The position numbers and the translations under genes were made by a program. This document shows, in pieces, positions 29,554 to 59,382 of a DNA stretch of 64,000 nt (its first letter is position 1; each line of letters begins with the position of its first letter). The DNA lies in the NCBI RefSeq assembly GCF_041521385.1, contig NZ_CP168006.1, forward strand, positions 3,084,133 through 3,148,132, read 5' to 3'. A model generated the notes under the pieces. The model worked only from the letters and a program-made list of their open reading frames with translations. It was not told the DNA's origin and did no database searches. The DNA comes from Alcaligenes faecalis (GTDB taxonomy: Bacteria > Pseudomonadota > Gammaproteobacteria > Burkholderiales > Burkholderiaceae_B).

Positions 29554-29797
29554 TAGTTTTCTTGTGGGGCCCGGGTACGGCTTGTCTTGGCGGGTCTCTT
29601 GCCCACGCTGCGCGTGGGTGCCCTTGTCAGCGTGCCGTTGCGGGCGGGTCGTGAACTCGGAGCGCGGTTTGTCCCCCGGGCAAACCGCAAGCGTGCTCCT
29701 CAAACAGCACGCCCCTTGCATCCCGCCCCAGCACTCTGCCGGCGGCAAGAGCCCTGACTCGCCCGCCAAGCCGTACCCGGGCCCCACAAGAAAACTA
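29554..29797 (-). repeat. Structured intergenic repeat, copy 3 (minus orientation)
   Basis: Bounded by perfect inverted arms 29556-29584 and 29767-29795 (29 bp; two more pairs extend outward). Read on the minus strand it shares with copies 1 and 2 the ordered blocks CTTGCCG, GATGCAAG, TGCTGTTTGAG, GAGTTCA, CTGACAAGGG and GGCAAG. Its hairpins differ but stay paired: CCCACGC-GCA-GCGTGGG (29602-29618) where the others have CCGGTGC-GCA-GCACCGG, and GCGGTTTG/CAAACCGC (29664-29688) where the others have GGTTCGTCC/GGACGAACC. GGAGC/GCTCC replaces GCGGGG/CCCCGC. No open frame is credible here. Confidence 0.75.
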
Positions 29798-30290
29798 ACA
29801 ACACGGGTTAAAGCTCAAACGGCACTGGCAGAGGTGGGACGAAAGGCGGGGGCTCAGATTGGAGGGTTTGAGAAAGGAAGGGAAGGGGATGGGGTTTGCT
29901 TTGGCTGAGGCTGAATGTTCTCGGGGTTTTGGGGTATCAGTTTAGATGTGGTTTTTTTAATTGTTCTTTTGTGTTTAGAGGGAAAGTGAAACGAAGAGTG
30001 GCAGTGGAGTGTGTGTTTAGAGATCCCGTGAATGAGTAGAGTTCTTGGTGTGCTATCAGGGCAGGCCACGCAGTCAATCAGCGAGTTAGTTCTGCTTTCG
30101 GTTTTTGCGTTGTTGATGTGACGAAGTCGATTTAGTGAGTGTAAAAGGGCAAGACAATAGGGTTTTAGGGGGGCAGAAGAGCAGAACGATAGGCGCTTAG
30201 GAAGGGCAGAAGAGCAAGGCAAGAGGCCCTGTTGATTCAAGGGGACCGTCTGTTGGAAGAGATTGGTAGATAAGAAGCCATTGTGAGCCG
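29798..30290. other. Intergenic DNA between two structured repeats
   Basis: No gene recognised. Purine-rich; GGGCAGAAGAGCA occurs twice as a direct repeat (about 30172-30184 and 30201-30213) shortly before copy 1 of the structured element. Confidence 0.4.
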
Positions 30291-30516
30291 TTCAGTCGGC
30301 CTGCTGGGGTGTTGGGGCGGATCAGAGTACTTGCCGCGGTCAGGAGATAGCGTAGGGGTGCAAGCATCCTGCTGTTTGAGCGGGGCGTTTGTGGTTCGTC
30401 CTGGGGACGAACCACCCCGCGAGTTCAGGATGCGCCCGGTAGCTATCTCCTGACAAGGGTACCGGTGCGCAGCACCGGCAAGTGCTCAGCCCGGACACCC
30501 CAGCAGGCCGACTGAA
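30291..30516 (+). repeat. Structured intergenic repeat, copy 1
   Basis: A 226-bp element closed by a perfect 22-bp inverted repeat (30291-30312 with 30495-30516). Nested stems inside: GAGTACTTGC/GCAAGTGCTC (30325-30334 with 30478-30487, one G-U); TCAGGAGATAGC/GCTATCTCCTGA (30340-30351 with 30442-30453); GCATCCTG/CAGGATGC (30364-30371 with 30426-30433); GCGGGG/CCCCGC (30380-30385 with 30415-30420); GGTTCGTCC/GGACGAACC (30393-30413); CCGGTGC-GCA-GCACCGG (30462-30478). TGCTGTTTGAG at 30370-30380 is shared by all copies. It looks like a structured RNA or fold-back element; no protein is encoded. Confidence 0.8.
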
Positions 30517-52075: not shown

Positions 52076-52137
<62 letters not shown>

Positions 52138-58923: not shown

Positions 58924-59155
58924 GCCGTTTGGCGCCCTGTCAGGGTGTTTGGGGCGATTCAGAGTACTTGCCGCGGTCGGTTCTGGAGTCCGGGATGCAA
59001 GCCCTGTGCTGTTTGAGCGGGGCGCTTGTGGTTCGTCCGGGGGACGAACCACCCCGCGAGTTCACAGGGCGCCCGGATTTCAGAACTGACAAGGGCACCG
59101 GTGCGCAGCACCGGCAAGTGCTCAGCCCGGATACCCTGACAGGGCGCCAAGCGGC
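58924..59155 (+). repeat. Structured intergenic repeat, copy 2
   Basis: A 232-bp element with the same plan as copy 1 but a different closing stem: 58924-58948 pairs with 59131-59155 over 25 bp with only G-U exceptions. Inner stems: 58980-58994 with 59072-59086 (GTTCTGGAGTCCGGG/CCCGGATTTCAGAAC, two G-U); GCCCTGTG/CACAGGGC (59001-59008 with 59063-59070); GCGGGG/CCCCGC; GGTTCGTCC/GGACGAACC; CCGGTGC-GCA-GCACCGG. TGCTGTTTGAG is at 59007-59017. Stem sequences differ from copy 1 in three helices yet remain paired. Confidence 0.8.
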
Positions 59156-59382
59156 GTCTTTCTGACAAGGCCGAGTACCGAATAAGCCATCCGCCTGGCT
59201 CTCTACGCGACCTAGCTAGTTTGCTCAATCATTGAGCCGACATATGACATTTAAAAAACAAGCATCTTCTCTTACCCGCGTTTAGTTCTTGAATAACAGA
59301 ACAACAGAACAGCAGAACAAAAAAAGAAAAAGGGGAGAGCCACCCAAGCTCCCCCCTATTTCCCAAGTCACTCGCCAAAGAT
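59156..59382. other. Intergenic DNA downstream of structured repeat copy 2
   Basis: No gene recognised. A purine-rich CAGAAC-type repeat (AACAGAACAACAGAACAGCA, about 59295-59320) precedes the pirin stop codon. Confidence 0.4.

Follow-up and report, generated by a model that had tools for sequence, protein, structure and literature searches.

In our reading, the repeated element described here constitutes a new family of structured-RNA repeats that are dispersed in the genome, with REP-like placement and a conserved multi-helix core. The family is real, strongly structured and apparently undescribed (no description of the element was found in the accessible portions of the open-access literature), and the molecule that folds is probably RNA. 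The window analyzed, a stretch of 64,000 nucleotides of an Alcaligenes faecalis genome (the own genome, G000), carries three copies, 1 on the minus and 2 on the plus strand, at the positions and in the orientations that a sequence-only reading of this DNA had assigned to them. Many single copies at fixed sites maintain their elaborate fold via compensating mutations, and the strand bias of the core points to RNA. Bacterial dispersed palindromes are usually regarded as DNA parasites or terminators. If our reading is true, a large unnamed RNA family in sequenced proteobacteria has been overlooked as repeats, a dispersed-repeat family is simultaneously a true RNA family, and an RNA-level role of intergenic repeats becomes testable. 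The window copies and their parts are as follows (window positions):

29554..29797, minus strand: element copy 1; covariance model match G000:C1:3113723-3113886 (minus); closing-stem ends of the second type, TTTTCTTGTGGGG...CCCCACAAGAAAA
30287..30520, plus strand: element copy 2, with the closing stem as folded; model match G000:C1:3114457-3114621 (plus)
30370..30380, plus strand: copy 2 conserved loop block TGCTGTTTGAG, the 5' side of the GA-containing internal loop
30462..30478, plus strand: copy 2 side hairpin CCGGTGC-GCA-GCACCGG (from the fold and pair counts)
58924..59155, plus strand: element copy 3; model match G000:C1:3143094-3143257 (plus)
58924..58953, plus strand: copy 3 closing stem, 5' arm, partner of 59126-59155 (from the fold)
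59007..59017, plus strand: copy 3 conserved loop block TGCTGTTTGAG
59058..59064, plus strand: copy 3 conserved loop block GAGTTCA, the 3' side of the GA-containing internal loop
59098..59114, plus strand: copy 3 side hairpin CCGGTGC-GCA-GCACCGG (from the fold and pair counts)
59126..59155, plus strand: copy 3 closing stem, 3' arm (from the fold)
59291..59320, no strand: short tandem repeat next to copy 3, unit about GAACAACA, x3.8; arrays of this kind are found together with the element family

Fold and core architecture

Folding of copies 2, 3, and 1 gave z-scores of -12.9, -12.5, and -8.8, respectively, against 200 dinucleotide shuffles per copy. The element is about 230 to 290 nt long and is built of several nested helices. 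The common core is built around an outer helix and a long inner helix, together with helices of 8 bp and of 5 to 6 bp, a side hairpin of the form C-GCA-G, and an apical hairpin whose loop has three bases in most copies; within this core, the minimum-energy and centroid structures of copy 1 disagree. A closing stem encloses the core in the window copies and folds to about 27 to 31 pairs, longer than the 22, 25, and 29 bp proposed before folding. These stems had also been described as unrelated in sequence, which does not hold for copies 2 and 3, as they have common ends (AGCCGTT...GGGTGTT and ...GGCGT). Ends like TGTGAGCC...GGCGTCTT occur in most of the 21 own copies listed, and a second end type, like TTTTCTTGAGGGG, is present in copy 1 and at three other sites. 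Closing stems thus vary in sequence between copies yet stay paired, and only their short ends recur.

The loops of the core were compared in a set of diverse sequences. A pattern scan of other proteobacteria gave at least 123 matches, and many of the 123 that were scored are chance matches judging by their stems; 38 scan matches picked by eye and 12 other loci gave 46 usable sequences, 26 of which entered the alignment (18 from the pattern scan and 8 from relatives or the own genome, chosen for good folding). One internal loop is formed by TGTTTGAG facing CGAGTT; both strands of this loop carry GA in each of the 26 diverse sequences, and the T-G-T and G-A loop columns are invariant in this set. 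In the Alcaligenes type, another internal loop has GATGCAAG opposite CG. With its GA on both strands the first loop may be kink-turn-like and would suit a protein site. Among the ordered unpaired blocks noticed earlier, GAGTTCA indeed lies in a loop, whereas CTTGCC and GGCAAG are not unpaired, both being part of the outer core helix. Inspection by eye gave no support for a pseudoknot joining GCAAG to GCTTG. A coding origin seems unlikely, because the one-base indels and whole-module swaps seen among copies would break a reading frame.

Covariation within the fold

In 13 own copies, 96.6% of the alignment cells pair and double-sided changes occur in 38 of the 59 structure pairs; neither value was reached in any of 500 shuffles. 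This bears out on a larger set the claim, made from the three window copies, that the inner helices change in step. Because copies are related, covariation was also assessed against a tree-based null with our own R-scape-like script (not R-scape itself), in which substitutions are re-dealt per branch of a FastTree tree. A set of 100 family loci produced 145 matches and 109 distinct rows, and dropping 47 near-identical or incomplete rows left 62 copies that are <95% identical. Among these, 26 of the 59 structure pairs were significant at E<0.05, and none of the 12,821 other column pairs was; the R-scape-like test thus indicates a conserved structure. The 26 diverse sequences have 77.5% of their cells paired, a value that 0 of 500 shuffles reached but that is inflated, since this set was preselected for folding. 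With the tree-based test over all column pairs, 4 of 39 pairs passed in this set; when the proposed pairs alone were tested, 14 of 39 passed, and no off-structure pairs did.

Strand asymmetry of the core

In a pure DNA palindrome G.T and A.C are expected to be equal, because each is the other on the opposite strand. In the core helices of the 109 distinct aligned copies, pairs with Watson-Crick neighbours on either side included 166 G.T, 23 A.C, and 61 others, which correspond to 64, 23, and 45 distinct column/pair/neighbour contexts, respectively. The own copies alone had 39 G.T, 5 A.C, and 12 others. When the long inner helix was recounted in a strand-symmetric way, using an aligner without a G.T preference, it gave 53 G.T versus 5 A.C. 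The excess of G.T over A.C in the core helices indicates that the plus strand as reported is the selected one. Together with covariation beyond the tree-based null, it upholds the initial proposal that a folded single strand is under selection. Strand-biased deamination could add to the asymmetry. In the closing stems, counted with the aligner that does not favor G.T, the bias is weak (46 G.T versus 24 A.C; 26 versus 21 distinct contexts). The closing stem is therefore not clearly selected as plus strand, and the evidence for it is weaker and fits DNA-level palindrome repair too.

The strand asymmetry fits RNA and single-stranded DNA alike. On two indirect arguments we favor the view that the selected plus strand acts as RNA: no Y1 transposase was found in 10 genomes of the genus, and single copies lean away from the strand that templates lagging-strand synthesis. 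Of 44 single copies, 34 are on the G-poor strand, which templates the leading strand, in genomes that are not independent and with the leading strand taken from GC skew.

Size and distribution of the family

The family is not limited to the three copies first noticed. A motif search gave 27 matches in the 4.15-Mb own genome, part of them chance matches within genes. A covariance model was built from 13 own copies, and a genome search with it found 25 full copies and one partial match; 6 of the 25 full copies lie in the three units of a tandem triplication. Nine congeners have 14, 24, 33, at least 70, 0 (a 20-contig draft), 25, 29, 29, and 13 copies (G003, 33; G004, at least 70; G006, 25). In a sample of relatives, 16 of 41 genomes contain a match. 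A core model found matches in at least 12 of the 274 genomes of a class sample and in at least 9 of 90 in an order sample; the own genome is included in all three. Up to 150 candidates per genome were scored in the own genome, 70 in the relatives, 14 in the class sample, and 43 in the order sample. Several distant carriers have from at least 2 to at least 8 matches each, and well-formed members occur in Chromobacterium, Pusillimonas, Pigmentiphaga, Zoogloea, and Parapusillimonas among the matches listed. Of 11 class-sample loci, all but L333 and L338 were folded at the match, and eight of these 9 show the nested core in the minimum-energy fold; at one class-sample locus (L334) the core pairs with an adjacent inverted copy instead.

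The sequence-only reading had recognized no named family, and this agrees with Rfam: Rfam 15 had no match in the window at gathering scores, and 11 family loci searched at E≤1 gave one sub-threshold miRNA match and no credible family. A comparison of copy 3 with plasmid and phage sequences produced no match of the element.

A number of non-Alcaligenes members are followed by a separate AT-rich hairpin (GGTTACTTTCTTT...AAAGAAAGTAAC), located at 2501-2548 in L352, at 2001-2042 in L353, and in several of the loci L204-L323. Plasmid records match this hairpin as well: an Ilyobacter record does so at 6 places, and Caballeronia is also represented. Where one place of each was folded, the AT-rich hairpin was present and the core absent.

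Copies at matching sites in congeners

The copy-3 site is occupied in G002, G003, G006, G007, G008, and G009 (in the last, the apical part is missing), whereas G001 has no element there. In G004 the flanks alone matched, separated by a short gap, and in G005 one gene alone matched. A second site is likewise variable between congeners. At a third, judged from match coordinates that were not aligned, there seem to be full copies in some genomes and a truncated copy in the own genome, with G001 and G002 having none. None of these sites (two aligned, the third by coordinates) proved to be a clean empty site flanked by a target duplication, and the sequence around the missing element differs too.

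Between matching copies, whole helix modules are swapped, with both arms in step. The inner module of G007 at the copy-3 site is nearly equal to one found elsewhere in the own genome, and from this likeness we read helix-module exchange as gene conversion between copies. In 20 comparisons of 12 own copies with G006 and G003, which are not independent of one another, 213 pairs had changed. Of these, 112 differ on both sides and 34 on one side while remaining Watson-Crick, 28 ended in G.U, 14 in A.C, and 25 were broken. Replaced or swapped modules seem to underlie the comparisons of 871 with G003, of 915b, and of 3143. Double changes were classified in 10 of the 20 comparisons, and 33 of 54 are transversions, with no G.U step (16 of 27 when one comparison resembling a replaced copy is omitted). 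The many transversional double changes suggest that templated repair between arms contributes.

Low-scoring, decayed copies account for 6 of 33 in G003 and 3 of 25 in G006, and 2 of the 3 in G006 are cut by insertion sequences. At L198 (G002) the inner part is lost, about 94 bases of palindrome, and both outer arms remain. The insertion sequences inside element copies are IS110-family-like (family assigned by eye from the proteins); one is in the apical hairpin of an own copy (L014), and those at two G006 sites (L182, L175) are in the CGAG/TTC internal loop. The flanks of one G003 pair (L172) match two separate G006 places (L174), and the matches end near element sites, as is expected from recombination between copies.

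Genomic context

Gene context was obtained for 14 of 19, 19 of 26, and 16 of 22 groups in three genomes (own, G003, and G006, respectively). Flanking genes are convergent at 29 of the 49 sites and divergent at none; as background, the 344 adjacent gene pairs of the own regions include 64 convergent and 64 divergent ones. The 3' side of the element points toward a gene tail 49 times and toward a gene head 9 times in these genomes. All 17 close groups (7, 7, and 3) consist of a minus and a plus copy whose 5' ends face each other; matching sites or triplication units account for several of them. Five spacers between paired copies have no sequence in common.

In about 8 of 13 stretches judged by eye, gene and element are separated by a terminator-like hairpin with a T run; none was seen in the others. 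The closing stem itself is not followed by a run of more than four T in any of the 21 flanks listed, and 3' flanks are like GGCGTCTT. Upstream of the element, a search for sigma-70-like promoters, the only type sought, found none above shuffles; the lack of an own promoter of this type makes dependence on read-through plausible. No clear partner gene emerged when the ORFs within 2.5 kb of the element were compared at 63 loci. The largest ORF cluster (14 loci) consists mostly of frames overlapping the element, with some members 228-669 bases away, and there are also neighbour-ORF clusters of three loci. An IscB/TnpB omega RNA would likewise have no clear effector ORF in cis at these loci.

Short tandem repeats lie within about 415 bp of copies in 10 of 15 cases in the own regions. 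Perfect ones in intergenic DNA number 10 in 9,014 bp near copies versus 4 in 60,770 bp farther away in the own genome, 12 in 10,622 bp versus 1 in 43,474 bp in G003, and 11 in 8,441 bp versus 3 in 54,362 bp in G006; these counts used 21 of 26, 24 of 33, and 20 of 25 elements, respectively, and far regions mostly picked near elements. Repeat units have 3-9 bases, and their sequences vary by site and, at one site, between species. A perfect GCTGTC x10.3 array at window 52076-52137 has no element adjoining.

Comparison with known systems

REPs are short palindromes (about 20-40 nt) with a conserved tetranucleotide foot and, going by the title of a 2006 paper by Tobes and Pareja, are reportedly targets of insertion sequences. 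The present element resembles the REP/BIME repeats of E. coli and P. fluorescens in its dispersed palindromic intergenic copies, its position at convergent gene ends, its inverted pairs, and its role as an insertion-sequence target. It differs from them in its length of about 250 nt, its multi-helix core with conserved internal loops and strand asymmetry, its stems, which covary rather than being conserved, and the absence of Y1 in the genus sample. The Y1 (PF01797) TnpA-REP transposase was found in none of the 10 genus genomes (G000-G009) and in 13 of the 41 genomes searched; membership in the REP/TnpA-REP system was rejected on its absence from the genus sample and on the 230-290 nt of nested helices. 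The accessible part of a study of P. fluorescens intergenic repeats describes a Tail-repeat-Tail bias (PMC2718517), and REPs in mRNA can protect 3' ends or stop read-through, according to the portion available of PMC12306157.

With the structured RNA classes of Rfam the element shares a conserved fold, covariation, and conserved loop motifs, but it is dispersed in many copies and has no fixed downstream gene that we could see. Like a MITE it is small, non-coding, and multicopy with inverted ends; unlike one, its ends differ between copies and stay paired, and no autonomous partner, nor any target duplication at the sites examined, was found. Similarly readable on both strands are the palindromic structured-RNA candidates reported from the human microbiome (PMC8040213). 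Going by the description there, the examples given measure 80-132 bp, and most of the 250 candidates have predicted terminators. An intrinsic terminator was rejected, with at most four T in a row after the stem and with terminator-like hairpins being separate where present. A group II intron or other retroelement with a resident enzyme was likewise rejected, there being no reverse transcriptase in the own genome; 7 of the 10 genus genomes have none, and 3 of 11 genomes have one match each.

Interpretation and alternative explanations

Our working model, to which we give somewhat less than an even chance, is that these dispersed intergenic repeats have a plus-strand core selected as a single-strand fold and serve as a read-through 3' plug with a putative protein-binding core. 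Transcripts running past a gene into the intergenic gap would carry the element, which would fold within the transcript into a rigid body. The closing stem, the long inner stem, and the side hairpin might then plug the 3' end, holding off exonucleases or stopping onward (antisense) transcription, and the internal loops TGTTTGAG/CGAGTT and GATGCAAG/CG would provide a putative protein-binding or tertiary-contact site. Copies would be kept alike by gene conversion and probably spread by another route. A plug role alone would not require loops conserved across taxa, which counts against it. Further points against the model are the absence of a sigma-70-like promoter above shuffles, the weak strand bias of the closing stems, the frequent transversions among compensated changes, the decayed copies, and the pass rate of 4 of 39 pairs in the alignment of diverse sequences. 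A broader statement, which we likewise hold as appreciable but short of probable, is that the element represents an unnamed, widespread proteobacterial RNA class that exists as a dispersed repeat with dozens of resident copies per genome, in which one strand is selected for its fold, modules are exchanged by gene conversion, and an invariant GA-type loop is predicted to mediate protein or RNP recognition.

The element might instead be a selfish, non-autonomous mobile element, with the folded plus strand (RNA or single-stranded DNA) as substrate of an enzyme from elsewhere and a host function that is absent or secondary. The range in copy number among congeners, from 0 in the 20-contig draft to at least 70, the variable occupancy of the copy-3 site and two further sites, and the at least 2 to at least 8 matches in several distant carriers would all fit this. 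We nevertheless consider it rather unlikely, as the sites examined include no clean empty one with a target duplication, the 10 genus genomes lack Y1 and 7 of them a reverse transcriptase, distant members have no clear partner ORF nearby, copy 3 has no plasmid or phage match, and many fixed-site copies stay paired after divergence. The pairing could also be a property of DNA, maintained through templated arm repair (quasipalindrome correction) or cruciform selection and involving no RNA role. The strongly strand-asymmetric core helices and the unpaired blocks conserved across diverse sequences make this improbable, because arm-copying predicts neither, even though many compensated changes are transversions (33 of 54, and 16 of 27 once the likely replaced copy is excluded), the closing stems are near strand-symmetric (26 versus 21 distinct contexts), and the clustering of tandem repeats near copies could be the product of a replication-stalling hairpin. 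That the copies are ordinary REP/BIME repeats or intrinsic terminators seems very improbable to us: the tail-to-tail placement and inverted pairs are REP-like, but the element length, the nested multi-helix core, the conserved internal loops, the absence of Y1 in the genus sample, the absence of a T run above four in 21 flanks, and the separate terminator-like hairpins between gene and element in about 8 of 13 stretches all speak against it.

Tandem triplication around copies 1 and 2

The own genome has three tandem units of a 45,250-bp segment (window 1-30540 and G000:C1:3023000-3114672), an arrangement that could be a real amplification or an assembly feature. The homology stops at window 30540, about 20 bases beyond the element, and about 3.3 kb to the left of the first triplicated element pair also match the window at 98-99%. 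Each unit carries the copy-1/copy-2 element pair, and the units are 99.4 to 100% identical over the stretches compared.
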